From: Rubrobacter taiwanensis
Lineage (GTDB): Bacteria; Actinomycetota; Rubrobacteria; Rubrobacterales; Rubrobacteraceae
Assembly: GCF_004337705.1 (NCBI RefSeq)
Contig: NZ_SKBU01000025.1
Coordinates: 1 to 41,586, forward strand
DNA: 41,586 bases
Direction: 5' to 3'
Position numbers and translations under genes: made by a program. The notes under the pieces were generated by a model that was given only the letters and a program-made list of their open reading frames with translations, did no database searches and was not told the DNA's origin. Shown here in pieces: positions 9,751-41,405 of the stretch (positions are counted from its first letter, which is position 1; each line of letters begins with the position of its first letter).

Positions 9751-9797
9751 TCTATCCCTGCCCGCCTCGCGAACTCTCTTTTGCCTCTGTATGAGGA

Positions 9798-9844
9798 AGC
9801 TTAGAGATGCCAGCGGCCGCGCACATCGGCTAGGTGGCACATTT
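9798..9844 (-). promoter_or_regulatory. Boxed promoter 1 (glycosylphosphotransferase operon)
   Basis: Minus-strand box at 9844-9822 (AAATGTGCC-ACCT-AGC-CGATGTG), 18 bp, then TAAGCT at 9803-9798. Predicted start about 9791, 40 nt before ATG 9750. One of nine matching elements. Confidence 0.7.
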
Positions 9845-13794: not shown

Positions 13795-13841
13795 ACCTTA
13801 GCCTCCGGAAGATCTCGGTGCATGGGCCGGATGGCACATGT
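13795..13841 (-). promoter_or_regulatory. Boxed promoter 2 (beta-propeller gene)
   Basis: Box at 13841-13819 (ACATGTGCC-ATCC-GGC-CCATGCA), 18 bp, TAAGGT at 13800-13795. Predicted start about 13788, about 20 nt before ATG 13767. Confidence 0.7.
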
Positions 13842-18787: not shown

Positions 18788-18834
18788 ATGTTAGAAAGGC
18801 GGCGGGAAGGACACATCGGCCAACCGGCACATTT
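18788..18834 (-). promoter_or_regulatory. Boxed promoter 3 (WecG-sulfotransferase-GMD-Fcl operon)
   Basis: Box at 18834-18812 (AAATGTGCC-GGTT-GGC-CGATGTG), 18 bp, TAACAT at 18793-18788. The box touches the last base of the upstream glycosyltransferase stop codon. Predicted start about 18781. Confidence 0.72.
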
Positions 18835-21457: not shown

Positions 21458-21504
21458 ATCTTAGGAAGCGGGAGCACCCGGCACATCGGCCAGGCAGCCT
21501 ATTT
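21458..21504 (-). promoter_or_regulatory. Boxed promoter 4 (Wzy-like/GT4 operon)
   Basis: Box at 21504-21482 (AAATAGGCT-GCCT-GGC-CGATGTG), 18 bp, TAAGAT at 21463-21458. Predicted start about 21451, leader about 43 nt. Confidence 0.72.
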
Positions 21505-25624: not shown

Positions 25625-26432
25625 CCTTCCTCTTCCTTCTTCCCCTGGGGATCTTGAACGGTGGTATAGCGCCGAAAACGGCGACTCCGGAGACCTGCTC
25701 CACCTCTTCCCGCGACTTCCAGTCGTCGTCCAGGTAGTCCAGCAGGAATGCCAGACCCACGCCGAGCATCAGGCCCATTGCCAGCCCAAGAAGAACATTG
25801 CGCGGTATGTTGGGGCTTATTGGCGAGTACGGCATAACCGCCCGCTCCCAGACCGTGGCGACCACCGGGTAGATGCCCGGGCTCAGCTCGGAGGAGATCT
25901 GCTCCGAGAACACCTCGCCGTAAGCGTTGGCTATCCGCTGAGCTCGCTCGGGATCGGAGTCCCGGTAAGAGAGGAGGATGAACTGGGTGCCTTCGACGGG
26001 TTGTACGCTCAGGCCGGCCTGAACGGCCTCGGGAGGCCACGGCAAATTCAGCTCCCGGACTACGCCTTCCGCCACGGGGCGGGTGTTAATCGCCTCCGCC
26101 ATGGTCGCCGTAAACTCCTGGACGCCCTGCACTCCGTCTCTGAGGTTGCTGGGCGCGGCGGCACCGTCGCTTGCCGGTCCCTGCTCGATTAGCAGCTTTA
26201 TAGAAGCTTCGTATACCGGTGTTTGGGTGTAACTGAAGGCGGCGGCGAGCCCGGCCACCAAGAGGGGGACCAGCACGATGATCCAGAACCGGCGCCGGAT
26301 TATCTGTACGGGATCGTAGCCTTGGTAGAAAGCGGGCTGCTCACCGTAAGGCTCCTCGGGCAGCTCGTAGGGGACCGCTCGGGGATCAAACCGGGCATCG
26401 AGCCTTCTGCCATTAAGTCTCAGGTTGCTCAC
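25617..26432 (-). CDS. Wzz-type chain length determinant (polysaccharide co-polymerase)
   Basis: A 271-residue membrane protein: a cytoplasmic N-terminal segment, TM1 about residues 48-68 (FWIIVLVPLLVAGLAAAFSY), an extracellular domain, a Pro-rich stretch AVMPYSPISPN before TM2 (about 215-235, VLLGLAMGLMLGVGLAFLL) and a basic tail GRRKRK. This is the Wzz fold that pairs with CpsD. First gene of the five-gene operon from boxed promoter 5; the leader is long, about 110 nt, and contains a 6-bp hairpin ACGGCG/CGCCGT near the start codon that might affect translation. Confidence 0.87.
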   Translation of the reverse strand: MSNLRLNGRRLDARFDPRAVPYELPEEPYGEQPAFYQGYDPVQIIRRRFWIIVLVPLLVAGLAAAFSYTQTPVYEASIKLLIEQGPASDGAAAPSNLRDGVQGVQEFTATMAEAINTRPVAEGVVRELNLPWPPEAVQAGLSVQPVEGTQFILLSYRDSDPERAQRIANAYGEVFSEQISSELSPGIYPVVATVWERAVMPYSPISPNIPRNVLLGLAMGLMLGVGLAFLLDYLDDDWKSREEVEQVSGVAVFGAIPPFKIPRGRRKRKDG

Positions 26433-26548: not shown

Positions 26549-26595
26549 ATGGTAGGCGGAGGGTAATCCGGGTGCATCAGCCACCCGGCATATTT
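26549..26595 (-). promoter_or_regulatory. Boxed promoter 5 (Wzz-kinase-sulfotransferase-Wzx operon)
   Basis: Box at 26595-26573 (AAATATGCC-GGGT-GGC-TGATGCA), 18 bp, TACCAT at 26554-26549. The box overlaps the 3' end of the upstream TPR polymerase gene. Predicted start about 26542. Confidence 0.72.
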
Positions 26596-28574
26596 TCGGC
26601 CGCTCCGGTGATCCCGTCCAGCTGCTTGACCGCGCCTTGGAGGTAGGCCACCCTCTGCGGGAGCTCTCTATCGAGCGGGTTGAGGGCCGCCGCCTGCCGG
26701 TAGTAGCGCAGGGCTAGTTCCGGATCTCCCCGCCGCTCGTAGAACGCGGCCAGCAGCATGCGCGGCTCGTAGTGCTCGGGGTTCAGCCGGATCGCCCGCA
26801 TGTAGGCGCTCTCCGCGCGCTTCCAGTCCCCGCTCTCCATAGCCAGCTCGGCCTCCCGCTGAGCCAGCCGGGGATCGAAGGGGTTGAACTCCTGAGCCCG
26901 CTCTGCGAAGGCCAGCGCCGCCTCCGGATCTGTTGTCGTATAGCTCTGCATAAGATAGCGGTCGGCCGCGTAGAGCGGTACTGTGGCTGTCAGCGCCAGC
27001 GCCGCCACGGCGAGACCCCCGGCGCACAGCGGCCACCGGAAGGACTCCGGTGAGATCCTGTGCCTGCGCCAGGTCGAGGCCAGCAGGGCCAGGTAGACGA
27101 AGGCGGGCAGTGTCACGGCCGGCATCTGCCAGAACCACTCCGCGCCGGAATGGACGAACCAGTAGGCTACCGCGGCGGCCAGCGCGCCCACTTGAGCCTT
27201 GCCTTCGGTCTGGAGGCTCCTGAACCTGTCCCGGAAACCCGCACTCAGACAGACCGCCAGAAACCCGAAGAAGAGCGCTCCCCCGATAATGCCGCGCTCG
27301 CTCAGTATCTCGAGCTGCAGCATGTGCGGCTGGCGGACGGTCCCGGTGGGCCGCTCGCGCAACTGGTAGTACTTCGCCTCGTAGTTGTGCGTGCCCGTTC
27401 CCGCCACGGGATGCGCGGCGAAGTTCTGCCAGGCCACCTGCCAGAGCACGTAGCGGCCCGTGCCGGAGGCGCTCAGGTAGCGGCTCTGTTCCTGCCCGGA
27501 GGTGCCGCCGGCCTTGAAGTCTTCCCACTTCTGCTGGGCGAAGGTCTCCAGCCCGCCGGTGCGCTCGTTCAAGGTAGCGGTGCCGGCGGCCAGGATGACC
27601 AGCACACCGGCGAGTGCAAGGGTCCCGACGGCGCGTGCGAGGATCTTCGGCGGCTGCCACTGCTGGTCTATAAGCCCCCAGGCCAACCCGTAAATCCCCG
27701 CTCCCAATGCGCCGAGCCACACGGCCGGCAGGGCCAGATCCAGGGCCGCCTCCGGGTTCCCTTCGTTGAGGAACTCCAGGTAGACCGCATTGAGGTGGGG
27801 GAAGGCGGCGACCAGCGCGAGGGCTACCGGCGTCAGAGCCATCATTCCCCGGAGCCGCTGGCCGGAGAGCAGGAAGAACACCGGCAGCGAGACGGCAAGC
27901 GCCACCATCGCTCCCCGCGACTGGGTCAGGACGGCGAGGTTGGCGCTCAGAACGGCTCCCGCGAGCACCGCGGCCCGGAGAACCGGGTTGAGCCTGCGCG
28001 AGCCGCCCAGGTAGATGGCGACCCAGAAGGAGACCAGCAGAAAGGCGGCCTCCCCATTGTAGTAGCCGACGGTCCCTACAAGCCGGTTGTCCTCGAACAG
28101 GTGCTCGATCTGCGGGCCGAGGTTCTGCAAGGTCAACGCCGCTATTCCTGCGGGCCCCAGTGCCGAGGCGGCCAGCGCCCACCGGCGCGAAGCTCCCAGC
28201 GCCACCAGCGCCACCGCCGACCAGAAAACGAGCAGGTAGAGGAGCGTCTGTCCTGCTCCGAGCCACGCATCTCCCCGGTTCGGAGACCACAGTATGGAGG
28301 CGAAGGTCCACGCTGTGTACGCGGCGAGCAGGCCGAGGGCGAGCATACTCCAGCCGAGCCTGGCGCTCACGAAGAAGCCCACGACCGACACGAACGATAC
28401 GAGGACGGCCAGTATGAGAGCAGCCGGCGCCCACTCGCCCGTGAAGTAGCCGCCGTTCGCACTGCCCATCCAGGTGGCGAGAAGTACGACGCAGATCAGG
28501 GCCAGAGTGGGGAAGAACCTCTCGCCGTCACCCGAGAGCCATTTCGTGGAGCGCTTCGACAGGTATTCTCCCAA
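26577..28574 (-). CDS. O-antigen ligase/Wzy-like protein with C-terminal TPRs
   Basis: A 665-residue protein with about 12 N-terminal membrane helices and a ligase-type periplasmic loop (SASGTGRYVLWQVAWQNFAAHPVAGTGTHNYEAKYYQ), which has the RxxxW and HN features of Wzy_C proteins. After a final helix (about residue 530) it carries tetratricopeptide repeats, for example AERAQEFNPFDPRLAQREAE, RAIRLNPEHYEPRMLLAAF and YYRQAAALNPLDRELPQRV. The TTG at 28574 is supported by GGGAGG 6 nt upstream. It follows the LPXTG gene by 35 bp and is probably co-transcribed with it from boxed promoter 6. A second polymerase or ligase in one locus implies two polymers, or one polymerase and one ligase. Confidence 0.82.
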   Translation of the reverse strand: MGEYLSKRSTKWLSGDGERFFPTLALICVVLLATWMGSANGGYFTGEWAPAALILAVLVSFVSVVGFFVSARLGWSMLALGLLAAYTAWTFASILWSPNRGDAWLGAGQTLLYLLVFWSAVALVALGASRRWALAASALGPAGIAALTLQNLGPQIEHLFEDNRLVGTVGYYNGEAAFLLVSFWVAIYLGGSRRLNPVLRAAVLAGAVLSANLAVLTQSRGAMVALAVSLPVFFLLSGQRLRGMMALTPVALALVAAFPHLNAVYLEFLNEGNPEAALDLALPAVWLGALGAGIYGLAWGLIDQQWQPPKILARAVGTLALAGVLVILAAGTATLNERTGGLETFAQQKWEDFKAGGTSGQEQSRYLSASGTGRYVLWQVAWQNFAAHPVAGTGTHNYEAKYYQLRERPTGTVRQPHMLQLEILSERGIIGGALFFGFLAVCLSAGFRDRFRSLQTEGKAQVGALAAAVAYWFVHSGAEWFWQMPAVTLPAFVYLALLASTWRRHRISPESFRWPLCAGGLAVAALALTATVPLYAADRYLMQSYTTTDPEAALAFAERAQEFNPFDPRLAQREAELAMESGDWKRAESAYMRAIRLNPEHYEPRMLLAAFYERRGDPELALRYYRQAAALNPLDRELPQRVAYLQGAVKQLDGITGAAENMPGG

Positions 28575-28609: not shown

Positions 28610-29263
28610 CTACCGTGTTCGGTCCTGCCGGCCGGCGCGCCGGCGCAGAGCTGCGATCCCGGCCCCGGCCAGAACGAGCGCCCCCAGATACAGGAGGGTT
28701 ACTACGCCGCCCGTGTCGGGCAGGATGCCGGGCGTCACGCCGCTGCCGGTCTCCGGCCGGCCGGAGATACCCGTAGTGGCTACTATCGACTCGCACACTT
28801 CGTTGCTCAGAACCTCATCACCGCCGATCACGTTCATCGGGGCTCCGGTCAGGAGTATCTGTATGGTGCCGCCTTCGCCCTCGGTGATCCGGGCGTTCTC
28901 CCCGTCGATCATCGTGCCCTGGGTCCCATCGGCGTCCTCTAGAACCACCGAAGCGCCGGAAGCGATGGAGAAAGTCCCGGGAAACACAAGCGTGTCGCCC
29001 GCCTTGAGATCGTTGCCGCCACTCTCTATCTCTATGCACGGCAGCCCGGCTGCGGGACCTGAAGGGGCCGCGATCTCGGGGTACTGGAACTCGGCGGAAG
29101 TGGTGCCGGGAGCCTGAGCTCCGGCAGCGGCGGCAAGAATGAGCCCGAACGCGCTCGTGAAGAGGATTCCGATGACCATCAGGATACCGGGCCTTGAAAA
29201 ACCGCTCTGTCTCATCCCTGCCTCTGCTGCGGATGCTGCTCTCGCGGGATCGTCATTGCTCAT
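28610..29263 (-). CDS. LPXTG sortase-anchored surface protein
   Basis: A 217-residue exported protein. An N-terminal hydrophobic signal segment (about 26-48, ILMVIGILFTSAFGLILAAAAGAQA) precedes a soluble domain of about 120 residues with a beta-rich look (GDTLVFPGTFSIASGASVVL). The C-terminus has the complete sorting signal: LPDTG, a hydrophobic helix (VVTLLYLGALVLAGAGIAAL) and a basic tail RRRAGRQDRTR. It would be cut between Thr and Gly and linked to peptidoglycan by a sortase, which is not in this window. ATG 29263 has GAGAGGA upstream. Function of the soluble domain is unknown. First gene of the promoter-6 unit. Confidence 0.8.
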   Translation of the reverse strand: MSNDDPARAASAAEAGMRQSGFSRPGILMVIGILFTSAFGLILAAAAGAQAPGTTSAEFQYPEIAAPSGPAAGLPCIEIESGGNDLKAGDTLVFPGTFSIASGASVVLEDADGTQGTMIDGENARITEGEGGTIQILLTGAPMNVIGGDEVLSNEVCESIVATTGISGRPETGSGVTPGILPDTGGVVTLLYLGALVLAGAGIAALRRRAGRQDRTR

Positions 29264-29303: not shown

Positions 29304-29350
29304 ATGGTATGGTCGAGTGGGTGCCCGTACATCTGTCACATGGCATATTT
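29304..29350 (-). promoter_or_regulatory. Boxed promoter 6 (LPXTG protein/TPR polymerase)
   Basis: Box at 29350-29328 (AAATATGCC-ATGT-GAC-AGATGTA), 18 bp, TACCAT at 29309-29304. Predicted start about 29297, leader about 34 nt. Confidence 0.7.
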
Positions 29351-30620: not shown

Positions 30621-30642
30621 AGAGACCCGGAGGGGTGTCTCT
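30621..30642. terminator. Hairpin between convergent genes
   Basis: AGAGACCC and GGTGTCTCT arms around a short loop, between the beta-helix stop (30614) and the ABC transporter stop (30642). It could terminate both converging transcripts. No long T tract on either side. Confidence 0.4.
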
Positions 30643-32555
30643 CACTCGCTTAAGAGGTTTGCCTCCGGTGCCGGTCGGGGATCATGAGAAGGACGCCTGC
30701 CGTTGTCCGCTTCTCCGTAGCCCTGTGCCTGCGAGAGGGTTTTGAACCGGCCGTTCATCCGGCTAACGAGGGCTTCCCAGTCGCCGGACTCGACCAGGCG
30801 GCCGTGTTCCAGCACGTGGATGACGTCCGCGCTCTGGATGGTGGAGAGCCGGTGGGTTATTACCAGGATGGTCATACGCCCGCGGAGCTCTTCTATGGCC
30901 CTCTGGATGCGCCGCTCGTTCTCCGAATCAAGGGCGCTCGTGGCTTCGTCCAGGATCAGCAGGGAGGGTCGGCGCAGGAGGGCCCGCGCCAGCGCCAGGC
31001 GCTGCTTCTCGCCGCCGGAGAGCCGCACGCCGCGGTCTCCGAGCACCGTCTCTATTCCGTGGGGAAGCCTGGAAACGAAGTCCGTGGCGGCGGCCATCTT
31101 AAGCGCCCGCTCCATCTCCTCGTCGCTCGCTGCGGGAGATGCCCACAGGAGGTTGGCCCGGATGGTGTCATTAAAGAGGAAGGTGTCCTGCGTCACGTAG
31201 CCGATCCGGTCCCGCCAGGAGTCCATGTATTCGGGCGTCAGCGGTCTTTCGTCTACCAGCACCCTGCCGCCGGTAGGCTTGATCAGGCCCATGACCAAAT
31301 CCGCGACCGTACTCTTGCCCGCGCCCGAGGAGCCGACGATGGCCGTGGTCTTTCCGGCCTCGATCTCCAGGCTCAGATCGTGGATCGCAGGGGCCTTCTC
31401 TTCCGCTCCGTAGGAGAACGAGACCTCTTCGAGGCGCACATGCCGGTGCAGCTCAATCTCCCTGCCCGGCCGGCCGCCTTTCTTCTCGCTCGCCGCTTCG
31501 CAGCGCTCCAGCAGGCTCAGCACCCCGGCGAACGCCGGCATCGCGTTCGCGAACGCCTGGCAGTTGTTCTGGAGACTGCTGAAGAGCGGCATCATCCGGT
31601 TGAAGAGGAAGAGCAGCAGGATAATGCCGGCCGAAGCCATGTTCAGGACCTCGATCGAGACGTACAGGATGGCGCACAGGATCGCCACCGAGCCCGTGCT
31701 GAACCAGAACGCCGTCCCGGCGTAGACGCGCGTCGTCCTAACGAACATCTGCGCTACCCTGTCGGTGAAGTCTGAGAAGATGCGCGTGGTGCGGTCCTCC
31801 GCGCCGTAGCTCTTCGTGGTCTTCATGCCGCCGAGGTGCTCTATGGCCGCCGAGTAGAGGCCGTTGGTCGCGAGCGAGGTCTCCTGGCCGGTCCAGCGCG
31901 CCGCCCGCGTCCTCTTCCCGAGCGCCAGCAGCAGAGCCGCGCCGGAGAGGAAGACGACGGCGGTCATCGTTGCCGAGAGCTTCAGCGCGAGCGCTACGTA
32001 GACGGAGAGCAGGACGGCGTTGGTGACCAGGCTCAGAAGGACGCTTGCAGCGCCGCCGACTCGATTGAGCTCGGTGGTGAGCGCGTGGGTCAGGTCGGAG
32101 GACCGGATCTTCGAGAACACGAGCCACTCGGTCCCGGCCACCGCCCGGTAGAACCGCCGCCGCAGGGTGGCTACGAACTCCTGTTCGAGCCGGAGGTTGA
32201 AGATCGTCTGCCACCAGGTTATTGCCGAAAGCAGGGTAGCCAGGACCACGAAGGCTCCGAGTACGGCGGACAAGGTCGGCCGCAGGCCCACGGCCGCGAA
32301 TGCGGATGAGACAAGCCCGGAGAGCCACCCTACAGAGCCCTGCTGGACGTCCAGGCCTATGATCTGCATCAGCGGCACCAGCAACAGCAGTTGTGCACCC
32401 TGCGTCAGGCTCCGGAAGAGCGTCAGCACCAGGGCTACCGCAGATCTCCACGACGTGATGGAGACCATGGTTGCTATAAACGTCCGGGCCGTTCCGTCGT
32501 TTATAGGGGCGAGAGCCGCAGCCAGCCTCTTCCGGATATCTCTACCCGTGTCCAT
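30642..32555 (-). CDS. ABC exporter (fused TMD-NBD) of the RiPP cluster
   Basis: A 637-residue half-transporter: six membrane helices in the first ~330 residues, then a nucleotide-binding domain with Walker A VGSSGAGKST, Q-loop GYVTQDTFLF, signature RLSGGEKQRLALARALL, Walker B LLILDEATSALD and H-loop ITHRLST. It matches the D protein of lasso peptide clusters, which exports and gives immunity to the product. ATG 32555 overlaps the kinase stop by 14 nt; the order precursor-kinase-transporter downstream of boxed promoter 7 suggests one operon. There is no N-terminal C39 peptidase, which agrees with a separate B2 protease. Confidence 0.9.
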   Translation of the reverse strand: MDTGRDIRKRLAAALAPINDGTARTFIATMVSITSWRSAVALVLTLFRSLTQGAQLLLLVPLMQIIGLDVQQGSVGWLSGLVSSAFAAVGLRPTLSAVLGAFVVLATLLSAITWWQTIFNLRLEQEFVATLRRRFYRAVAGTEWLVFSKIRSSDLTHALTTELNRVGGAASVLLSLVTNAVLLSVYVALALKLSATMTAVVFLSGAALLLALGKRTRAARWTGQETSLATNGLYSAAIEHLGGMKTTKSYGAEDRTTRIFSDFTDRVAQMFVRTTRVYAGTAFWFSTGSVAILCAILYVSIEVLNMASAGIILLLFLFNRMMPLFSSLQNNCQAFANAMPAFAGVLSLLERCEAASEKKGGRPGREIELHRHVRLEEVSFSYGAEEKAPAIHDLSLEIEAGKTTAIVGSSGAGKSTVADLVMGLIKPTGGRVLVDERPLTPEYMDSWRDRIGYVTQDTFLFNDTIRANLLWASPAASDEEMERALKMAAATDFVSRLPHGIETVLGDRGVRLSGGEKQRLALARALLRRPSLLILDEATSALDSENERRIQRAIEELRGRMTILVITHRLSTIQSADVIHVLEHGRLVESGDWEALVSRMNGRFKTLSQAQGYGEADNGRRPSHDPRPAPEANLLSE

Positions 32556-33468
32556 CGGCGCAGTCCTCCTCTACCAGCCGCACCACCTCAGACAGGGTTG
32601 CGAAGGAATGAGGCCTCCGCAGCCTGCACACGCTCGCGCCGTTGACTACGCCCGCGCACTTGAGGAAGTGCCGGGGACTGTTCACCATCTGCAGCAGACG
32701 CCGGCCGTAGGTGTAGCGTACCAGCTCCACGAGGGCCTCCTGCGGCCGGAGATGCTCTATCTCCGGGTGCTCGCCTCTGCAGAGCACGTACACCCGCCGC
32801 AGCGGCCGGGGGACCGGCGAGAACTCGCGCAGAGCCTGCCGGCCCCGTTTGTCCGAGAGAGAGTCTAGCCGGGGCAGCCGGGCGAGGTCGTCGCCCAGCG
32901 AGACGGCCGCTCCCGGCCACAGCCTGAGTTGCGGGTAGGCGGGGAATACCGTGGGACGGCCCGCACCGTCGAGATCGAGGGCCGTTACGTCGTCCGCCAC
33001 CAGCGGATACCCCCGGCTGTACATGGCCGCCGCCATGGTGGATTTCCCCTCGCCCTTCTCTCCCACGAAGGCCGCAACACCGCCGGGGAGGGCCACCGCG
33101 CTGGCGTGCAGCGGCAGCCGGCCTCGCTGGTAGAGTAGCGCCCCCAGGGCCGGGCCGAGGATGACGGTGCGGAGTACCCTCTCGTCCGCGCCCGGGACCG
33201 GGTCTGCGACGATCTCTCTCCCGCCCCGGATCAGGAACCTGCCTGCCGGTCCGAAGGAGAGGTACGCTTCCTCTGCCGTGGCGTATACGCAGCCCGGCCC
33301 GGACTCCGCCTCCGGCGGCAGCTCGACTCTGCCCGAATGGATCTCCACGTCCGCCTCTCCCTCCGCGGACGCGAGCTCCGGCAGAGGAATGGCAGACCTG
33401 ATGACCAGACCGTAAGCGAGGCAGTTAGAAGCGGCTCTCCCGACCCGGAGAGCCGCTTCCTGCCGCAA
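32542..33468 (-). CDS. HPr-kinase-like peptide kinase of the RiPP cluster
   Basis: A 308-residue protein with an HprK/P-type C-terminal kinase fold: LPLHASAVALPGGVAAF, the P-loop GEKGEGKSTMAAAM (about residue 140) and VADDVTALD. Homologues in paeninodin-type lasso clusters phosphorylate the C-terminal Ser of the precursor (established for that family). Here the precursor gene immediately upstream ends in Ser, so the same modification is a reasonable inference. TTG 33468 is the first usable start, 31 bp after the precursor stop, and has no clear ribosome site, so translation may depend on coupling. Confidence 0.78.
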   Translation of the reverse strand: MRQEAALRVGRAASNCLAYGLVIRSAIPLPELASAEGEADVEIHSGRVELPPEAESGPGCVYATAEEAYLSFGPAGRFLIRGGREIVADPVPGADERVLRTVILGPALGALLYQRGRLPLHASAVALPGGVAAFVGEKGEGKSTMAAAMYSRGYPLVADDVTALDLDGAGRPTVFPAYPQLRLWPGAAVSLGDDLARLPRLDSLSDKRGRQALREFSPVPRPLRRVYVLCRGEHPEIEHLRPQEALVELVRYTYGRRLLQMVNSPRHFLKCAGVVNGASVCRLRRPHSFATLSEVVRLVEEDCADGHG

Positions 33469-33499
33469 GTAGCTGACAGTGTCTATCTGACTGCCTTAC

Positions 33500-33703
33500 C
33501 TACGAGATGGCGCCGTCCGGCGGGCTCATGAGGTTACAGAAGTCCGGTCCCGAAACGAGCTTCGACGAGCCCGGGGGAGGACACTGTACGGGCGGGTTTC
33601 CTACCCCATTAAAGCCACCTGGCGGGCCGCCCTGGCCTTGCAGCGTTATTGCTTCCACGGAGCCGTGCACCTTGAGCTCTGGCGACGAGTAGGCCTTCTT
33701 CAC
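33500..33703 (-). CDS. Lasso-type RiPP precursor peptide
   Basis: A 67-residue peptide read from GTG 33703 with an ideal ribosome site (AAAGGAGGTGA). The leader KKAYSSPELKVHGSVEAIT fits the lasso leader pattern YxxPxLxxxGxxxxxT, with Thr20 as the expected -2 residue. The remaining ~46 residues are rich in Gly and Pro (GQGGPPGGFNGVGNPP), contain Cys41 and Cys56, and end GAIS. The only acidic residues after the leader are Asp54 and Asp63; none is 7-9 residues after the predicted cleavage site, so a standard N-terminal lasso ring cannot form there. Either cleavage is elsewhere or the product is a different structure. First gene of the promoter-7 operon. Confidence 0.82.
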   Translation of the reverse strand: MKKAYSSPELKVHGSVEAITLQGQGGPPGGFNGVGNPPVQCPPPGSSKLVSGPDFCNLMSPPDGAIS

Positions 33704-33749
33704 TGTGACTCACCTCCTTTGGTTACGCGTGCTTGTTCAGCTACACCCC

Positions 33750-33775
33750 TGGCGAGAGCGACGCAACCCGCCAGC
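33750..33775 (-). promoter_or_regulatory. Small hairpin in the precursor leader RNA
   Basis: CTGGCG and CGCCAG arms (6 bp, 14-nt loop) lie in the ~80-nt untranslated leader between boxed promoter 7 and the precursor gene. It might affect RNA stability; no riboswitch class is recognised. Confidence 0.25.
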
Positions 33776-33790
33776 TCTGACTCATCGTGA

Positions 33791-33837
33791 AGCCTATCAG
33801 CGCGGTGTGGGGGAGTATTGTGCCGGATGGCATATTT
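33791..33837 (-). promoter_or_regulatory. Boxed promoter 7 (RiPP precursor operon)
   Basis: Box at 33837-33815 (AAATATGCC-ATCC-GGC-ACAATAC), 18 bp, TAGGCT at 33796-33791. The 3' third of the box is the most diverged of the nine copies. Predicted start about 33784. Confidence 0.65.
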
Positions 33838-33855
33838 GTGCGGAGGTCCGGAGGT

Positions 33856-35778
33856 TTAAGGGCTCAGGTTCGTCCGGCGCAGCCACAGAGCCAGCACCAC
33901 CGCTATGTAGACGGCGGTGGTGTCATCTAGCGTGCTGTAGGCCAAAAACCGGTAGTACGTCCGGCGCAGGGCGGCCATGTTCACGTACGGCTTGAGGACC
34001 TGGGGATCTTTAAAGATCACCTCCTCCAGGGCCGGGCGGTGATACAGGAGCATGGTCCGGGCGAAGGGCTGGCTGAGGTTGCCCTTGTCCATTCTCCAGC
34101 GCACCTCTTCGGGTAGGATGCCGGCCATTGCGTGGCGCAGTATCGCTCGCGTCCACCCCTGTTTGAGCTTCTGCCCGGGGGGCAGGGCCAGGCAGAACTC
34201 CATCAACCGCCGGTCGAAGAAGGGGTAGCGCGGCTCGACGGCGAACGCCGCACCGATCCTGTCGAGCAGCTCGATCGTGTACGGGTACACGCCCGTATTC
34301 AGCCCCTGCCACTGAGCCTGCCGCGACAAACGCGCCGGTTCGTACAGGACCGTTTCTTCTCTCAATCCTTGCAGGCGGTCCTCCAGACCCACCTCCCGGG
34401 CGAATCCGGGGTTTATTATCTTGCCCAACGCTGGGCCGGATTGTCCCCGGAAGCGCAGAGCTTCCCAGGCACGGCGCAGAGGCCCGGGGGCCGAGTACTT
34501 CAGCTCTGCGAGCCAGGGGTTGATCACCCGCGTGCGGAGGACCCGGCGGCGGCTCCGGCCGAAGCGCTTTGATACCGCGTTGATCTCCGAGGCGAGCTTA
34601 ATCCACCGCCGGTCGCGCGCGAGCTCGTACAGGTGGAGCAGGCCGTGGCCCACCACAGCGTCGCCGTCCAGGCCGTCCAAGAGCACGCGGACCCCGTTCT
34701 GCCGGGCGGCGCCGTACAGGCCGTAGGCGTCGTGGAGCGTGTTGCAGAAAGGCTCGTCCTCGTGCCACAGTATGCGGTCTATATCTCCCAGGGGCCGGAT
34801 AAGGTCGGCCCGCACCTCGTGCGGCTCGGTCCCGCCTCCGGCGAGGACTGCTCTCCTGTAGAAGCTCTCGTCAGCCCCTGGCAGGTAGTTGTAGCCGTCA
34901 AATAAGGCCGAGAACGTGTGCAGCCTCTCACCGCTTCCGGCAAGGAGCTCTCGGGCCACGCAGACGATGGAAGACGAGTCCAGACCGCCGCTGAGCAGGG
35001 AGCCCGCCGGGAAGGCGCTGCGCAGGCGGCAGCGAACGGCTTCGGTGAAGTGCTCCCGGAAGGCTTCTGCGTACTCCTCATCCGAGCTGTAGCGCAGCTC
35101 GCGGTAAGGGTCCAGAGCCCAGTAGCGGCGTGTCGAGGCTCCTCTGCGGTCCACGGTCATGCTGTGTCCCGGCGGCAGCCGCAGGATGTCCTTGTAGAAG
35201 GTGATGGTCTTGTCTTCGACGACCGGCACCAGGTTCTCCGCCACCCTCACCTCGTTGAGCCGCTTCGGCACCTCCGGCAGGCAGAGGAGGGATTTTATCT
35301 CCGATCCGAAAACGAAGGCGCGGCCGGAGCCGTAATAGTAGTAGAAGGGCTTGACCCCTATGTGGTCTCTGGCGCAGAAGAGTTTCTGCTCGCTCCGGTC
35401 CCAGATGGCGAAGGCGAAGTCTCCCACAAGCTTCTCCGGACAACGCTCGCCCCACTTCTCGTAAGCCGCGAGGATAAGCTCGCTGTCGCTTACCTCCTTG
35501 CGGTCGGCGAGCCCCAGCTGCACTATGAGCTCTTCCCGGTTGTCGATCCTGGCGTCGGCTGTGAGCATGAGCTTCCCGCTCCTGTGCACCAGGGGGAGCT
35601 TCTCGTTCAGTGATTCCGGTGTCGTGAAGAGCATGCGGTGTCCCAGACCGGCACCGCCCTCGCTCCACGCTCCGGTCCCGTCGGGACCCCGGTGGACGAC
35701 CCTGTCCAACATCCGCTTCAGCGCCCGGTGCTCTGCGGGGCGGCCGTCGAAATAGACGAGGCCGGCTATGGCGCTTAT
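33856..35778 (-). CDS. Asparagine-synthetase-like macrolactam cyclase (lasso C protein)
   Basis: A 640-residue homologue of asparagine synthetase B, the ATP-dependent cyclase of lasso pathways. The glutaminase-like N-terminus reads SAIAGLVYFDGRP then MLDRVVHRGPDGTGAW; the Cys nucleophile of true glutaminases is replaced by Ser. The synthetase domain has the PPi loop SLLSGGLDSSSIVCVA (about residue 255) and the DGDAVVGHG region. No ATG, GTG or TTG exists upstream of the ATG at 35712, which lies inside the conserved domain. An ATA codon at 35778 follows AAGGAG at 7 nt and exactly restores the family N-terminus, so initiation at ATA is likely. It lies upstream of the precursor on the same strand. 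Confidence 0.87.
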   Translation of the reverse strand: MSAIAGLVYFDGRPAEHRALKRMLDRVVHRGPDGTGAWSEGGAGLGHRMLFTTPESLNEKLPLVHRSGKLMLTADARIDNREELIVQLGLADRKEVSDSELILAAYEKWGERCPEKLVGDFAFAIWDRSEQKLFCARDHIGVKPFYYYYGSGRAFVFGSEIKSLLCLPEVPKRLNEVRVAENLVPVVEDKTITFYKDILRLPPGHSMTVDRRGASTRRYWALDPYRELRYSSDEEYAEAFREHFTEAVRCRLRSAFPAGSLLSGGLDSSSIVCVARELLAGSGERLHTFSALFDGYNYLPGADESFYRRAVLAGGGTEPHEVRADLIRPLGDIDRILWHEDEPFCNTLHDAYGLYGAARQNGVRVLLDGLDGDAVVGHGLLHLYELARDRRWIKLASEINAVSKRFGRSRRRVLRTRVINPWLAELKYSAPGPLRRAWEALRFRGQSGPALGKIINPGFAREVGLEDRLQGLREETVLYEPARLSRQAQWQGLNTGVYPYTIELLDRIGAAFAVEPRYPFFDRRLMEFCLALPPGQKLKQGWTRAILRHAMAGILPEEVRWRMDKGNLSQPFARTMLLYHRPALEEVIFKDPQVLKPYVNMAALRRTYYRFLAYSTLDDTTAVYIAVVLALWLRRTNLSP

Positions 35779-36079
35779 CGTTCCGCTCCTTCCAGGTTCG
35801 CCGGCGTGGAATCGCTTTACAACTCTACCACACCGGTGGATGCGGCAGTTGCTGGCTTATGCAACGACCGCTGCCGGAGCCCTCGATGCCGTCCGGATGC
35901 CCCACAGCCGGCGCGGGAGCGCAAGATGCCGGCCCGCCGGGCTCAGGGTTGCGATATATTTCCGGTGTGTGCCATTTCGCCGATCTTCAGAGGTTACCGC
36001 GATATCCGGCCGGCGGCTGGACACGCCGGAGCCTGCAGGCCGGATCTTCCAGCAGTCTATTACTCTAGAGGAGCAAGAT
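35779..36079. other. Divergent intergenic region in the RiPP cluster
   Basis: About 300 bp between the cyclase (minus) and the methyltransferase (plus). An open frame on the plus strand runs through it (from 35768) but is not protein-like. A partial copy of the box (GTGCC-ATTT-CGC-CGATCTT, plus strand, 35965-35987) lies about 90 bp before the methyltransferase, without a -10 at the standard distance. Confidence 0.35.
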
Positions 36080-36901
36080 GTGCCGTCCATAGTCCGTATC
36101 TACCTGCTCGCCTTCCAGGCATTCTCTCTCGTACATAGCGCGCTCGACAAGGCGCTCACGGCGGCGAGGGTGTGCTTTGTGGGCTTCTGGCTGGGCGTGC
36201 TTACAAGAGAAGATATTCACGCCATCGACGAGGCGTACTACACCAAGAGCAAAGAGGGTATACCCGGCGAGCCCAACTTTCACAGCAAAGAGTACAACCG
36301 GCGGGGGCTGTGGGAGTTTGAGAAGCGGGCGTTAGCCGATCATTTCTCGGGCTGCAGGCGGTTGCTCGTGCTCGCTGCGGGCGGGGGAAGAGAGATCCTG
36401 GCGCTGCAGAAACGGGGCTTCCGGGTGGACGGCTTCGAGAGCCATCCAGATCTGGTGGCCGCAGCAAACGAACTGCTGAGGGAGGAAGGAGAGCCGGCCA
36501 CCGTGCGCTTGCTCCCCCGCGACACCGCTCCGGACACCGGGGACACTTACGACGGGATCATCATCGGCTGGGGAGCCTATATGCTGGTGCAGGGGAGGAG
36601 GCACCGGATCGCTCTGCTCCGGCGGTTGAGAGCCCAGATCCGGCCGGGCGGACCCGTCCTAATCTCCTTCTTCGCGCGTCCGGGCGAGAAGTCCCGAGTC
36701 TACGAGCTGTGCGCGTTTACGGCCAACGTGTTCCGGCGCGCACTCCGGCGGGAGCCCGTCGAGGTCGGTGACTGGCTGGTCCCAAACTACGTCCACTACC
36801 TCACGCGCGACGAAGTCGCCTCCGAGCTCTCCGAAGGCGGGTTTGATCTCGTTCATTACGACACCGCCGGCTACGGGAACGCCGTCGGAGTGGCGGTGTA
36901 G
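36080..36901 (+). CDS. SAM-dependent methyltransferase in the RiPP cluster
   Basis: A 273-residue class I methyltransferase. After a hydrophobic N-terminal helix (SIVRIYLLAFQAFSLV), motif I is RRLLVLAAGGGREILAL (about residue 95), followed by the acidic loop DGFESHPD, motif II-like YDGIIIGWGAYMLV and motif III-like IRPGGPVLISFF. The GTG start at 36080 is chosen for its GAGGAG ribosome site; the open frame extends to 35768 without protein-like content. Some lasso clusters encode methyltransferases acting on the peptide C-terminus or side chains; whether this one does is an inference. It is the only plus-strand gene of the cluster. Confidence 0.75.
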   Translation: MPSIVRIYLLAFQAFSLVHSALDKALTAARVCFVGFWLGVLTREDIHAIDEAYYTKSKEGIPGEPNFHSKEYNRRGLWEFEKRALADHFSGCRRLLVLAAGGGREILALQKRGFRVDGFESHPDLVAAANELLREEGEPATVRLLPRDTAPDTGDTYDGIIIGWGAYMLVQGRRHRIALLRRLRAQIRPGGPVLISFFARPGEKSRVYELCAFTANVFRRALRREPVEVGDWLVPNYVHYLTRDEVASELSEGGFDLVHYDTAGYGNAVGVAV

Positions 36902-37040
36902 CAACGCGGAGGGTTTGAAGGAGAAAGGCCCGCCGGCACAAAAACGTGTTCCGTTGTAGACGCCGGCGGCCCGTACTGTAGCCTGATGCTGCGGTTCGGG
37001 TTTTGTGAGCCAGAGGAACCGCCAGGCGCTCGCTGTCCTG
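36902..37040. other. Intergenic region with a hairpin
   Basis: GCCGGC-centred arms at 36927-36937 and 36962-36972 (8 bp, one mismatch, then 2 bp; loop about 24 nt) follow the methyltransferase stop and could end its transcript. A minus-strand open frame from GTG 37057 runs antisense into the methyltransferase gene and does not resemble a known protein. Confidence 0.3.
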
Positions 37041-37103
37041 TTACGAGTGTCTATCACCCCCTTTCCCGTACAGTTCGGACCGCTCGCAGCGGTGGTTGCC
37101 CAT
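37041..37103 (-). CDS. Possible leaderless 20-codon ORF
   Basis: ATG 37103 lies 7 nt after the TAGGGT of boxed promoter 8, so transcription would start on the A of the ATG. The 20-codon frame (MGNHRCERSELYGK... ending HS) stops at a TAA. Inside it lies AAAGGGGGTGAT, nearly the complete anti-SD complement, but no normal start codon follows at the right distance. It may be a small peptide, a leader, or chance. Confidence 0.3.
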   Translation of the reverse strand: MGNHRCERSELYGKGGDRHS

Positions 37104-37110
37104 GATAGTT

Positions 37111-37157
37111 ACCCTAGTATCTTGCCGGAGGCCATACATCTGCCACCCGGCCTATTT
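37111..37157 (-). promoter_or_regulatory. Boxed promoter 8 (no recognised gene downstream)
   Basis: Box at 37157-37135 (AAATAGGCC-GGGT-GGC-AGATGTA), 18 bp, TAGGGT at 37116-37111. The box overlaps the 3' end of the exported propeller gene. Downstream on the minus strand is a ~200-bp gap and then the methyltransferase in the opposite direction. Confidence 0.65.
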
Positions 37158-38498
37158 GCCGTTTGCGCTCGCGTCTGGCACCGGCTTCAGATCCATGAAG
37201 TTGTGGAAGTAGTAGCCGCTGACGTTATCGGAGGCCGCCACCATAAGTCCCGTCGTGCCGCTGAGGTTCTGTTTGGTGGAGGTGGCGTCGTTGACGTTCG
37301 GGTCGGTGGATCTCCGGATGAAGGGGGTCCCCGGCCCCTCTTCGAAGGAGATGCCGTCCATGCTCGTGACTTTGTAAAAGATTTTTCCGCCGTGCTTGCC
37401 ATTGGTCACCCTCGGGGCGGTGGCGAATACGTAGAGGGAGTGGTGCTCCTCGTCGAGGAGCACGATGGGGCGCGTATGGTCGTCGCTTACCCGGCCGAAG
37501 GTGTGGCCGGTCCAGTCGCCGCCCGGGTCCCGTACCAGCAGCAGGGTCTCCGGCGCGTCGGGTGCGCGGTCCACACGGTCGCGCCGGGTCTTGACGGCGG
37601 CATAGACCCGGCCGTCGGAGTCGGCTTTGAGGTTGATGTGGTCGTTGGCCATGCCCGGACCTTGCAGGGCGGTGCTCGCCTCCCAGGCGTCTTCGGGCTC
37701 TCCATCCTTGTGGATAGCGAAGTAGAAGGCGTCGTCTAGCTGGTTGCTCCACATCACCCCGATCCGGCCGTCGAAGGCAATTATCGCCGAGATATCCTCG
37801 GGGTCGGCGGTGGAGCCCTCCACCGGCAAGACGAACGGTTTAGCCCAACTCAGGTCGCTGTTCAGAGTGTGGGTGACGTAGACCTCACCATGCCGGGTGT
37901 AGGTAGCCCATACTTTTCCGGTTGTGTCTTTGGCGAGCACTATCGCTTCCATGCCGCCGCCGGTTATGGTTACCGGAAAGCCTGCATCGAGCGAGTAGCT
38001 CCTGGATGACCGATCGTAACTGTAGCGCGAGAATTCCGCGCTTCCATAGCCGGCATCGACGTCCGGCGTGGCGCTGACCACGTAGAGATACACACCATCC
38101 CAGAGCGTGTCCGCCATAGACCGGTTGCGTCTGTCTACTACCGTTCCCGTGTCTCTCCAGGTCCGGGTATACTTGTTGTAGCGGTAGATGCGGTACTCCT
38201 CGGCGGCGCGGTTGAACAGGACGCTCCACCAGACTCCATCGTTGAACCAGAGCTTGCTCTGGGGCTTGGCGCCGGTCGGGCCGTAGCCGGCCGGGGTCAC
38301 GCCGTCGGCGCTGAAAGAGAAGTCCCGATACCCCACGTCATCGTCGGTAGAGGTGGCAGAAGCGCTTTCGGAGCCGGCTTCACCGGACCGGTCGGCCCTC
38401 TGCCACATGAGAGCGGCTGCCGTGCCCACTCCCAGCGCCACGATAACCGCCAGTGCCAGACCAACGCAGGGTAGCGGCAGTCTGTACCTGCGAGACAT
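37152..38498 (-). CDS. Exported beta-propeller-like protein in the RiPP operon
   Basis: A 448-residue protein with a single N-terminal hydrophobic segment (about 8-31, LPCVGLALAVIVALGVGTAAALMW), a Ser/Thr/Asp-rich linker and a large extracellular domain with repeated aromatic and Asp-rich blades (KLWFNDGVWWSVLF, SRYSYDRSSRSYSL, KVWATYTRHGEVYVTHT, IGVMWSNQLDDAFYFAIHKDG, LLVRDPGGDWTGHTFG). It resembles sialidase-like or six-bladed propellers, but no Asp-box catalytic set is evident. ATG 38498 has AAGGAG 4 nt upstream; the earlier start at 38516 is less likely. It follows the B2 gene by 8 bp, so it belongs to the NTase-B1-B2 operon from boxed promoter 9. Function unknown. Confidence 0.65.
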   Translation of the reverse strand: MSRRYRLPLPCVGLALAVIVALGVGTAAALMWQRADRSGEAGSESASATSTDDDVGYRDFSFSADGVTPAGYGPTGAKPQSKLWFNDGVWWSVLFNRAAEEYRIYRYNKYTRTWRDTGTVVDRRNRSMADTLWDGVYLYVVSATPDVDAGYGSAEFSRYSYDRSSRSYSLDAGFPVTITGGGMEAIVLAKDTTGKVWATYTRHGEVYVTHTLNSDLSWAKPFVLPVEGSTADPEDISAIIAFDGRIGVMWSNQLDDAFYFAIHKDGEPEDAWEASTALQGPGMANDHINLKADSDGRVYAAVKTRRDRVDRAPDAPETLLLVRDPGGDWTGHTFGRVSDDHTRPIVLLDEEHHSLYVFATAPRVTNGKHGGKIFYKVTSMDGISFEEGPGTPFIRRSTDPNVNDATSTKQNLSGTTGLMVAASDNVSGYYFHNFMDLKPVPDASANGK

Positions 38499-38506
38499 AT
38501 TGCTCC

Positions 38507-38971
38507 TTACCGGCAACCCAAGCTATTTCCCCTTTCCAGGGTTGCCAGCGGCGTGTAGCGTTCGAGCTCGAAGCCGCCGATTACCACGCTCCCCTCGCTC
38601 TCCACCCAGGCATGGGCCTCCAGCCGGCCTCCCTCGCCCCTGACGACCCCGATGTGCAGCAAGGCCGGATAGCCTCGCCGGGCGAGCAGAACCTGCGTCG
38701 CCAGAGCCTGTGTGAGGCAGGTATTTGCCGGAGATATGTAGCGGCCGGCCGTCTCTACCGCCCACACGACGCTCTCTCTGGAGAGCCGGTCGTCCCGCTT
38801 CCGGAAGGGTGTCTCCGCCAGCCGGGCCAGCCAGTCCCGCAGGGTCTGGAACGGCAGCAGCCAGAGCCCGAGCCTGGTAGCCGTGAGCAGGAGCGCGGCC
38901 TTGAGGAGGAGCCGCCGTTCGGCGGCCGGGCGGCGCAGTAACCTGCGCAGGCGTTTAGTTGCGGATCTCAA
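38507..38971 (-). CDS. Lasso B2 transglutaminase-like leader peptidase
   Basis: A 154-residue protein of the lasso maturation peptidase family (B2). The Cys is in ANTCLTQALATQVLLARRGYPALLHIGV and the His in EAHAWVESEGSVVIGG, the typical Cys-His pair of this transglutaminase-like fold, which removes the leader before cyclisation. A basic N-terminal helix precedes. ATG 38971 overlaps the B1 stop by 17 nt. Its presence with B1 and the cyclase is the strongest evidence that the cluster is lasso-type. Confidence 0.87.
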   Translation of the reverse strand: MRSATKRLRRLLRRPAAERRLLLKAALLLTATRLGLWLLPFQTLRDWLARLAETPFRKRDDRLSRESVVWAVETAGRYISPANTCLTQALATQVLLARRGYPALLHIGVVRGEGGRLEAHAWVESEGSVVIGGFELERYTPLATLERGNSLGCR

Positions 38972-39242
38972 CGAGTCCCTCGTCGGACATCCGCCGGAAC
39001 AGCGCGAGCAAGTCTCGTTCGCAGCGGCCGGGTTCGACCTCGTACTCTTCCAGCAGAGCGTCCCGGATCTCGCACACCCTTCTCGGCTGCTGGATCAACT
39101 CCCACACCCGGGCCCCGATCCCCTCCAGACCGTAGTACGTGCCGGCCTTAAGGTCGAGGATGGCCACCTCTCCGCCGATGTCGCTGGAGACCTGCCCTTC
39201 ACCGGCTACCACGGTCGAGCGCAAAGATAACGTGCCGGTCAT
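38955..39242 (-). CDS. PqqD-like RiPP recognition protein (lasso B1)
   Basis: A 95-residue RiPP recognition element of the PqqD family (GGEVAILDLKAGTYYGLEGIGARVWELI is the signature strand-helix region, then CEIRDALLEEYEVEP and a C-terminal helix). B1 proteins bind the precursor leader and deliver it to B2. ATG 39242 overlaps the nucleotidyltransferase stop by 4 nt. Separate B1 and B2 genes are usual in Gram-positive lasso clusters. Confidence 0.87.
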   Translation of the reverse strand: MTGTLSLRSTVVAGEGQVSSDIGGEVAILDLKAGTYYGLEGIGARVWELIQQPRRVCEIRDALLEEYEVEPGRCERDLLALFRRMSDEGLVEIRN

Positions 39243-40540
39243 CGTGTACTCCCTCCCGCTCGCAGTCGAGCTTCACCATTGCTGACGGTCTTCTTTCTCA
39301 GAGTATCGGTTGCTCTCACCGGCGGGAGACGAGCCGCTAGCTCCCGTAAGAGCCTCCCGCCGAGCCGGAGCGGCCGGATAAGGCGGTAGAGGGGGAAGAG
39401 CGCGCCCGGCAGCGGCATGGCCTGCCGGTCCGGCAAGGCCGGGGTCATTGCCCGGTGGATACAGTACCGGAATCTATCCCGCGGGCGTTCCTGCAGCCGG
39501 AACTGGAAGCGCCAGTAGGGCAGCTGCTCGACTATCCCTTCCCGGTCTGCGAGGCTCCCGGAGAATAGTTGCTCGCTCACCTCCGCGGCGAGCTCCTCTA
39601 CAACCGGGTCGGATCTCACTTCGCGCATTATGTCTTCGGGGAGTTCGGTATCCAGCAGATCGTTGACCAGCGCGAGGCCGAGGAAGAGCATCCGATTGCT
39701 GCGCAATTCGCCGGCGCGTCGCACGATCCGGTCCCAGTCTACACTTCCGGAGGCGCGGACCAGCTCGCCGACGTCGCAGATCCACTTCAGCCGCTCCCAG
39801 CGGTGCAGGGAACCGTGGACACAGAGCGTCAGGATCAAGTCCTCCCGCGGGAAGGCCGGAATCGAGCTGCCACCGAGCGGCACTCTTTCGGCGTGCTCCA
39901 GAAGATACTCCGGTGTAAGCGGGAAAGAGGTGTGCCTGGAGGTGATCTTCCAGTGCAGTTCTACGGCGCTCCCGTCGTCCCGCCTGAAGAGGTACTGGCG
40001 CGCGTACGGAAGGAAAGCAGCTTCCCGGCCGGGGGAGAGGCCGTGTTGTGCCCGGTAACCTAAAGAGGCCAGTGCCTCTCCGGCTTCCAGGACGTCCCGC
40101 TCGCGCACCAGGACGTCCAGGTCCCCGAACTGACGGAGCGCGAGGTTCCCGTAGGCGGTGGCCGCCAGTACCGGGCCTTTGTAGGGGATTGCGGGGATGC
40201 CGCGAGCTTCCAGTTCCCGCAAGAGCTTGAGCAGCTCTCCGGTCAGGTAGAGGTTTCGCAGGTGGGTGGCGTTGAAGTGACTCCGGAGCCGGCCCAGAAC
40301 CTCGTCCGGTACGGCCTCCGGGCGGTCTCCGTTCAGATGCCAGTGCAGGAGCGGGACCATCCCGTGCCGGTTCGCCAGGCGCAGCAGGTATTCCCAGTCG
40401 ATGTCTGCCCGGAGCAGGGCGGCGATGCGTCCGGCCGTTCCGGGATCTTTGGCGGTCCTGGCGCAGCAGAGCAGGAGCCCGGTTTCGTTCCGTCCGGCCG
40501 GTGTGGAGAGGCCGTTGAGCTTCGCTTCTGTACGGATCAT
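39239..40540 (-). CDS. Nucleotidyltransferase-fold protein of the RiPP cluster
   Basis: A 433-residue protein of the uncharacterised nucleotidyltransferase group often found in lasso clusters (NTP_transf_5 type). The core is IPAIPYKGPVLAATAYGNLALRQFGDLDVLV (about residues 115-145), with GDLDVLV giving the DxD metal site. Members near HprK-like kinases are thought to act on the phosphorylated peptide; the exact reaction here is unknown. ATG 40540 lies 9 nt after the -10 of boxed promoter 9, so the mRNA leader is only a few bases. First gene of the operon that continues with B1, B2 and the exported propeller protein. Confidence 0.78.
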   Translation of the reverse strand: MIRTEAKLNGLSTPAGRNETGLLLCCARTAKDPGTAGRIAALLRADIDWEYLLRLANRHGMVPLLHWHLNGDRPEAVPDEVLGRLRSHFNATHLRNLYLTGELLKLLRELEARGIPAIPYKGPVLAATAYGNLALRQFGDLDVLVRERDVLEAGEALASLGYRAQHGLSPGREAAFLPYARQYLFRRDDGSAVELHWKITSRHTSFPLTPEYLLEHAERVPLGGSSIPAFPREDLILTLCVHGSLHRWERLKWICDVGELVRASGSVDWDRIVRRAGELRSNRMLFLGLALVNDLLDTELPEDIMREVRSDPVVEELAAEVSEQLFSGSLADREGIVEQLPYWRFQFRLQERPRDRFRYCIHRAMTPALPDRQAMPLPGALFPLYRLIRPLRLGGRLLRELAARLPPVRATDTLRKKTVSNGEARLRAGGSTR

Positions 40541-40549
40541 TCTCTACCC

Positions 40550-40596
40550 AGTATCCTTAAGCGCCTGGTGCAGCACATCCGCCACCCGGCCTATTC
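40550..40596 (-). promoter_or_regulatory. Boxed promoter 9 (RiPP NTase-B1-B2 operon)
   Basis: Box at 40596-40574 (GAATAGGCC-GGGT-GGC-GGATGTG), 18 bp, GATACT at 40555-40550. Predicted start within a few bases of ATG 40540. The -10 is the only one of the nine not starting TA. Confidence 0.68.
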
Positions 40597-40604
40597 TGCC
40601 CATC

Positions 40605-41405
40605 CTAGCCTATTAACAACCGGGAGCCGACGAAGACCAGCATGGCGGCGAGCGCTATCTTGAGCGGTCGGCCCGGCAGCACGTAGCTCAGCTTGCTCCC
40701 GATGAGGACTCCCGGAACGCCGCCCATCAGCAGCGTCGCGGCGAGGCCGAAGTCCACGTTGCCGTGGGTCATGTGCGCGATGCCGGTCACCAGCGAGAGG
40801 ACCGTGGCGTGGGCTATGTCGGTTCCCACGACCACCCCCGGGCTTATAGGGTAGAGCAGGAGCAGTATGACGGCCATCACGCTCCCGCTGCCTATGGAGG
40901 TGAGACCCACCAGGTACCCCCCGAAGGCCCCGAAGACGATGGTAAACAGCCGCCGGCGGCGGCTCATGGCGGTCTTGCCGTCCCAACCCGTCTGCTTGCT
41001 ACCCACCCATCTCTCCGGCATGAAGATGCGGAAGATAAGCGAAGCTCCGACCAGGACGAGGGTCGCGGCGATCACGGTGATCATGATGGATCGCACCGCT
41101 TCCGGGTTGAAAGCACCCTTGATCCACTCCAGGGTCTGCACCCCGAAGAGGCTGGCCGGGATGCTCCCGAGAGCCAAAAAACCCGCCACCTCCAGATTCA
41201 CCGAACTCTGCCGGTAGTGCTGGAACGAGCCGGTCAGCTTCGTGACCGTGGCGTAGACCATGTCCGTCCCTATGGCGGTCGGGGCGGGCACCCCGGCCCC
41301 GAGCATCAGAAAAGGAGTCATGAGCGAGCCGCCGCCTACCCCGGTGAGGCCGACCAGGAATCCGGTCAGCAGCCCGAAGAGCGGGGGCAGGATCTCCGGC
41401 GTCAT
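40605..41405 (-). CDS. TauE/SafE-family membrane transporter
   Basis: A 266-residue permease with about eight membrane helices in two homologous halves, each opening with the family glycine motif: [19 protein letters not shown] at the N-terminus and [19 protein letters not shown] in the middle. TauE/SafE proteins export sulfite, sulfoacetate or related organosulfur anions. ATG 41405 overlaps the cysC stop (ATGA), so the two form an operon and sulfite or sulfate transport is the likely role. Located just outside the boxed region. Confidence 0.85.

Follow-up and report, generated by a model that had tools for sequence, protein, structure and literature searches.

The 41,586-nucleotide contig NZ_SKBU01000025.1 of Rubrobacter taiwanensis (assembly GCF_004337705.1), analysed here over its full length (positions 1 to 41,586) and referred to below as the window, carries a gene cluster for a ribosomally synthesized and post-translationally modified peptide (RiPP) that the first-pass annotation had described as lasso-type. 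Profile searches and a check of coordinates confirmed all the genes that it had reported. On the minus strand, the cluster encodes a nucleotidyltransferase of the NTP_transf_5 family (NTase; 39239–40540; PF14907, 225 bits, E 1e-66), a homologue of the nucleotidyltransferases of paeninodin- and pseudomycoidin-type clusters; B1, a PqqD-like RiPP recognition element (38955–39242; PF05402, 62 bits; NF033536, 73.9 bits); B2, the transglutaminase-like lasso leader peptidase (38507–38971; NF033537/lasso_biosyn_B2, 105.5 bits, cut-off 33); C, the asparagine-synthetase-like lasso macrolactam cyclase (33856–35778; NF033535, 761 bits, cut-off 525); the precursor (33500–33703; NF033528, 33.2 bits, cut-off 33); an HprK-like peptide kinase (32542–33468, start provisional); and D, an MsbA/HepA-like ATP-binding cassette (ABC) exporter (30642–32555; PF00005/PF00664). 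These seven genes lie within 10 kb, together with genes for a beta-propeller protein and a methyltransferase that are treated further below. In searches against Pfam and NCBIfam, NTase, B1, B2, C and D scored above the curated cut-offs, B1 as a PqqD protein that does not reach the lasso-specific PqqD models, while the kinase and the methyltransferase remained below threshold. B2 retains both its conserved Cys and its conserved His in the alignment, and the kinase carries the Walker A motif GEKGEGKST and the DD motif VADDV.

The precursor combines a lasso leader, MKKAYSSPELKVHGSVEAITL, with a Pro/Gly-rich core, QGQGGPPGGFNGVGNPPVQCPPPGSSKLVSGPDFCNLMSPPDGAIS, that contains two Cys residues and ends in Ser. 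The leader, which has the form YxxPxLxV(H/Y)GxVExITL, shows YxxPxL at −17 to −12 (Y5..P8.L10) and Thr at −2 (T20-L21), and these two markers give an identical cleavage register. Read from T(−2), the first Asp or Glu of the core is found at position 33 and none at positions 7–10. We collected 34 lasso-leader precursors from other phyla, each from a cluster linked to a cyclase gene, and every one of them has Asp or Glu within core positions 7–10; having been fetched through the cyclase gene, they show the form of cyclase substrates and not the frequency of cyclase-free clusters. As the published lasso rings comprise 7–9 residues (PMC8498205), a canonical lasso ring cannot form from the window core. 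A search of the window genome found no second precursor with a lasso leader or with a proper ring acceptor. Thus, the lasso-type assignment holds for the machinery (B1, B2, C and a precursor with YxxPxL and Thr(−2) are all present), but not for the product, since the acceptor at core 7–9 (or 10) is missing and three relatives have the pathway without C. Judged from its predicted core, the window product is wrongly named a 'lasso peptide' and should not be filed as one.

The conserved Met of C corresponds to an ATA codon (35776–35778) preceded by AAGGAG. There is no in-frame ATG, GTG or TTG just upstream; the ATA is the start of the gene and the TTG at 35712 is not. This otherwise intact gene could be either a weakly expressed relic or the maker of an unusual macrocycle. 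If C is active on Asp 33, Asp 42 or an unlisted acceptor, the window would produce a true or odd lasso or some other macrolactam and only the relatives a linear peptide. The intact C, its position next to the precursor in the order C-precursor-HprK, as in cyanobacteria, and the above-threshold scores of the cluster models all speak for such a product; with a core devoid of acids at positions 7–10, published rings of 7–9 residues, an ATA start and no other lasso-leader precursor in the genome, we nonetheless regard it as unlikely.

Analysis of the distribution of the cluster in the class (39 genomes from 13 genera of one family; the G+C content of the window is 66%) showed that B2 is present in 4 of the 39 genomes and the precursor in exactly the same four. 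The first-pass annotation had named homologous clusters without the precursor as one observation that would refute it; no such cluster was seen, and it is the cyclase that the relatives lack. The three relatives, G001 and G022 of one genus and G020 of another, have a B1-B2-precursor-HprK-NTase-D cluster with no cyclase at the locus and none elsewhere in the genome above the NF033535 cut-off. This is not the result of a contig break, because one of these loci sits in a 4.4-Mb contig. The precursor of the cyclase-free G020 cluster scores above the cut-off of NF033528. The relatives' clusters showed no methyltransferase gene. In gene trees the four clusters group together (0.99 for the concatenate, 0.975 for D and 0.94 for HprK), and the window proteins are 47–53% (HprK) and 56–58% (D) identical to those of the relatives; the trees disagree on the inner branching and so fit a single loss of C, two losses or a single gain in the window alike. 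As G001 and G022 are near-identical at this locus, the three relatives amount in practice to two independent comparisons.

The cores of the relatives follow the pattern ..PPFG..GPPGCNPSDGCVAPGLGSQ(I/V)GN..NNPQ.RP. Their first common acid stands at core position 20; G020 has an extra acid at position 5 and G001 one at position 10, where its sister G022 has Asn. The cores of G001 and G020 are 76% identical, compared with 57% for the leader, 41% for B1, 36% for B2, 52% for HprK, 40% for NTase and 56% for D, and dN/dS is about 0.1–0.3. In RiPP antibiotics it is usually the leader that is conserved and the core that varies. This reversal makes the core look like a component under constraint, and it is hard to reconcile with a decaying lasso antibiotic cluster whose cyclase is lost or failing, whose precursor is drifting and whose other genes are functionless leftovers. 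The ATA start of C, the divided reading frame of HprK in G020 (see below) and the patchy occurrence in 4 of 39 genomes would fit decay, but no other protein segment of the cluster is as well conserved between relatives as the core, the motifs of the other enzymes are intact and the regulatory box before the precursor is conserved, so that we consider this explanation quite improbable.

Two observations on the kinase gene may be recorded here. HprK of G001 and G022 seems to start with ATT behind AGGAGG (L056, around 9180), and the N-terminus of HprK in G020 is divided between two reading frames (L057, 9400–9560, minus strand), which reflects either a frameshift or a sequencing error.

In all four genomes the order precursor-HprK-(NTase)-D continues into an exopolysaccharide locus, with D adjoining a Wzy gene that is followed by those for Wzz and a tyrosine kinase. 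In the window these encode a Wzy/O-antigen ligase with TPR repeats (26577–28574; PF04932; the same neighbour in the relatives), a Wzz chain-length protein (25617–26432; PF02706) and a CpsD-like tyrosine kinase (24914–25624; PF13614), all on the minus strand; the relatives add a flippase-like gene similar to that of the window. A small LPXTG-anchored surface protein (28610–29263, minus strand; TIGR01167 above cut-off in the window and in L056; LPDTG or LPSTG in relatives) is also encoded in the locus of all four genomes; in G020 its gene lies beyond B1, and in the other three it separates D from Wzy. In the relatives, B1 is preceded by a histidine kinase gene, a LuxR-type response regulator gene and a receiver-like gene; the window genome carries this regulator set on a separate contig (L079). 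For comparison we used six Wzy loci without peptide genes, five from relatives and one being the second such locus of the window genome. Their gene order is mostly different, and none of the six, as fetched, contains HprK or NTase. The conservation of synteny that the first-pass annotation had proposed to check is therefore seen in all four genomes. Its suggestion of a tie to the envelope under common control is supported as well, since the cluster adjoins the Wzy-Wzz-tyrosine kinase locus in each genome, including those of two further genera, and a palindrome recurs across it, although inheritance of a single locus could account for part of the shared synteny. The alternative in which NTase, the exporter and perhaps the kinase act on behalf of the polysaccharide, with the peptide as only a regulator or primer, has little to recommend it: the top score of D is to HepA, a polysaccharide-linked ABC exporter family, and in the relatives NTase and D stand between the peptide and Wzy genes, but HprK and NTase are missing from the Wzy loci without peptide, and the kinase-NTase-ABC trio accompanies precursors of lasso peptides or of linear polyphosphorylated peptides (LPPs) in Bacillota, Bradymonas and cyanobacteria (PMC13381572; PMC10368454).

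The palindrome in question, ATNNGCC-N4-GGCNNAT, is an interrupted one; within the window it precedes the starts of about nine genes. It lies upstream of the precursor (33818–33835), of the NTase-B1-B2-propeller genes (40577–40594), of the LPXTG gene (29331–29348), of Wzz (26576–26593), of a second Wzy gene at 19945–21408 (21485–21502), of a sulfotransferase gene at 16892–18586 (18815–18832) and of the gene at 11545–13767 (13822–13839); a further copy marks the start of the sugar-phosphate transferase open reading frame (ORF) at 8248–9840 (9825–9842), and another (37138–37155) overlaps the end of the propeller gene. The boxed promoter that had been proposed for two operons thus corresponds to a genuine repeat with copies at 37138 and 40577, but one far from confined to these positions, and the copy at 37138 follows the propeller gene and does not head an operon. 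Counts obtained with a position weight matrix are circular, because the matrix was trained on the same loci, and we rely on those of the fixed pattern, which was likewise read from these loci. Exact copies number 10 in the window genome (five in the window and one on L079, at the receiver-like gene), seven in G020 (five in or near the locus) and three each in G001 and G022 (two each in the locus); the reversed pattern used as a control gave counts of 2, 0, 0 and 0 for the window genome, G020, G001 and G022, respectively. When one mismatch is allowed, 11 boxes are found in the window and 5–6 in the relatives' loci, where shuffled sequences give means of 1.3 and 0.5–0.7, respectively; of the six Wzy loci without peptide genes, L131 has five and the others 0–1 each. 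The box stands before Wzz in all four genomes and before the precursor in the window and G020, with a one-mismatch copy at the latter place in G001 and G022. The putative regulator acting at this site could be the LuxR-type response regulator.

The closest known system is that of the LPPs of Bacillota, described as restricted to that phylum, which are cyclase-free, embedded in capsule or exopolysaccharide loci and reported to be expressed synchronously with them (Popov et al., 2026, PMC13381572). Like the LPP clusters, those studied here combine a B1-type recognition element, an HprK-like kinase, an NTP transferase and an MsbA-like exporter within a polysaccharide locus, and the three relatives are also free of cyclase. 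Unlike them, the window has a cyclase, and all retain the lasso B2 and a lasso leader (GSVExIT) in place of the LPP leader YxxPxVLxHQxIxFETxxS, which is cut by a SipW-like signal peptidase (PMC13381572); no gene for such a peptidase was found among the cluster ORFs of the window or the relatives. The system would work like that of the LPPs without being a member.

A second likeness is to cyanobacterial lasso clusters of the NF033528/NF033535 type, which have the same gene set and a very similar leader. The cyclases closest to that of the window come from a Nitrospira metagenome-assembled genome (56% identity, partial) and then from cyanobacteria (mostly 43–52%). The cyanobacterial order is B1-B2-C-precursor-HprK-D-NTase, whereas in the window NTase comes first and the propeller and methyltransferase genes stand between B2 and C; unlike that of the window, the cyanobacterial cores have Asp or Glu at 7–10, and the exporter belongs to another ABC type. 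No cyclase-free version was seen among the cyanobacterial clusters fetched, all of which were fetched with the cyclase. In L023 and L025, cyanobacterial lasso-type precursors have cores of ~45–60 residues that are rich in Asn, Asp and Ser, with a normal acceptor at core position 8. With paeninodin and pseudomycoidin the window shares the HprK kinase, NTase and MsbA-like exporter, and its C-terminal Ser matches the target of the paeninodin kinase; the supposed closeness to paeninodin fails, however, on the nearest cyclases, on the leader, which is WxxP there (PMC13381572) and YxxP here, and on the ring acceptor, present there and absent here. The Bsf cluster of Bradymonas (PMC10368454) likewise unites A, B1, B2, C, D, kinase and nucleotidyltransferase and has YxxPxL at −17 to −12, but its core has Gly1 and Asp8 and its leader Ile(−2) instead of Thr(−2). 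A kinase and an NTase are standard in cyanobacterial, paeninodin-like and Bsf clusters (PMC8498205; PMC10368454), and the tailoring set, contrary to the first impression, is not unusually rich. We also considered the HPr-rel-A system (TIGR04352/TIGR04353), which calls for a kinase and a PqqD protein above the curated cut-offs, and rejected it at 27–37 of the 200 bits needed and, in a relative, 24.6 of 35 bits.

Taken as a whole, the sequence comparisons make it rather probable that a lasso-derived RiPP pathway has been incorporated into an exopolysaccharide locus and that its product is probably not a lasso. The core has no ring residue and the relatives keep the peptide but not the cyclase, so the product is probably linear, secreted and modified; our best reading is a surface peptide, probably phosphorylated and glycosylated, that would be co-regulated with the exopolysaccharide. 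Precedents exist for the kinase, the NTase and a linear product (PMC13381572; PMC8498205). In characterized systems B1 presents the leader, B2 cleaves it, D exports the product and the pseudomycoidin NTase adds a hexose to the phosphate, and HprK-like kinases phosphorylate Ser, which is C-terminal in paeninodin and Ser3 in Bsf and LPP (PMC8498205; PMC10368454; PMC13381572). By analogy, we infer the chemistry, secretion and surface role as follows. A locus-specific regulator at the palindromic box would switch on the precursor and polysaccharide genes together; B1 would bind the YxxPxL leader; the kinase would phosphorylate a core Ser, C-terminal in the window and internal in the relatives; NTase would decorate the phosphate; B2 would cut after T(−2)-X(−1); and D would secrete the Pro/Gly-rich peptide, its two Cys possibly disulfide-linked, to serve in the envelope or matrix.

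Several points weigh against this picture. The window cyclase retains 101 of 103 invariant residues in the alignment, so it is, or was until recently, under selection and might make a non-canonical macrocycle. The window core is only 35–46% alike to that of the relatives, both being Pro/Gly-rich with two Cys; given this poor alignment, the two may have different products. Since the relatives' cores end in Pro, a C-terminal Ser is not a general kinase target. A wider reading, to which we give slightly less than even credence, is that of a second, independent escape from the lasso outside Bacillota, in which the cyclase was lost, B1 and B2 were kept and a conserved linear, kinase- and NTase-modified matrix peptide came under a polysaccharide operator; the window, with its ATA-start cyclase and acceptor-free core, would be an intermediate.

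The remaining features lie outside the peptide pathway or beside it. The propeller gene (37152–38516, minus strand) is predicted, from an AlphaFold2 model (pLDDT 83.5), to encode one membrane helix followed by an all-beta domain that best matches propeller glycoside hydrolases and lyases in the PDB (TM about 0.5). It was rejected as a member of the pathway, as homologues elsewhere are unlinked to RiPP genes; they occur in relatives without the peptide, several ~4–21 kb from a Wzy homologue, and the protein is best seen as belonging to polysaccharide loci. The gene for a protein resembling S-adenosylmethionine-dependent methyltransferases (36080–36901; PF13649, 23 bits) lies on the plus strand, opposite to the cluster, and its absence from the relatives' clusters led us to reject it as a conserved tailoring gene. 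Directly 3′ of the precursor, before HprK, the transcript could form a 13-bp hairpin (33427–33462, minus strand; fold z −5.8 for the stretch), which we infer to be an attenuator or stabiliser; it would fall inside the translated part if HprK starts at TTG. Hairpins occur at the same place in the relatives but are not significant in G001 and G022. Rfam and tRNA searches gave zero matches, as did a search for plasmid relatives of the precursor or of the Wzy gene. Three sulfotransferase genes in the exopolysaccharide locus (13852–14814, 16892–18586 and 23878–24876) suggest that the polymer is sulfated. A PAS-GGDEF diguanylate cyclase gene at the far end of this locus (7184–8254) is a possible cyclic di-GMP input, and a TauE/SafE-family exporter gene is found at 40605–41405. 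Behind the LuxR-type regulator, two small genes of unknown family (143–156 and 72–84 residues; L056, 10284–11027; L079, 504–1150) are conserved beside the regulators of the exopolysaccharide/peptide locus. Further HprK-linked loci of lasso-like type, with small peptide ORFs that differ (WLRPELVVLVSGVEATPTGTGGG..., YAAPTITEWGTVVDVTAGMGNTSSSDD...), are found in other genomes of the phylum (L075, 12041–12262; L077, 10287–10517).

These results show that genome mining by leader, B1, B2 or even C can report a 'lasso peptide' for a precursor that is unable to close the ring. The LPP study of 2026 left open the function of such peptides, including a role in biofilms. The occurrence of an LPP-like enzyme logic in unrelated bacteria, inside an exopolysaccharide regulon with a shared operator-like site and a strongly conserved core, would make the idea of the peptide as a matrix component directly testable.

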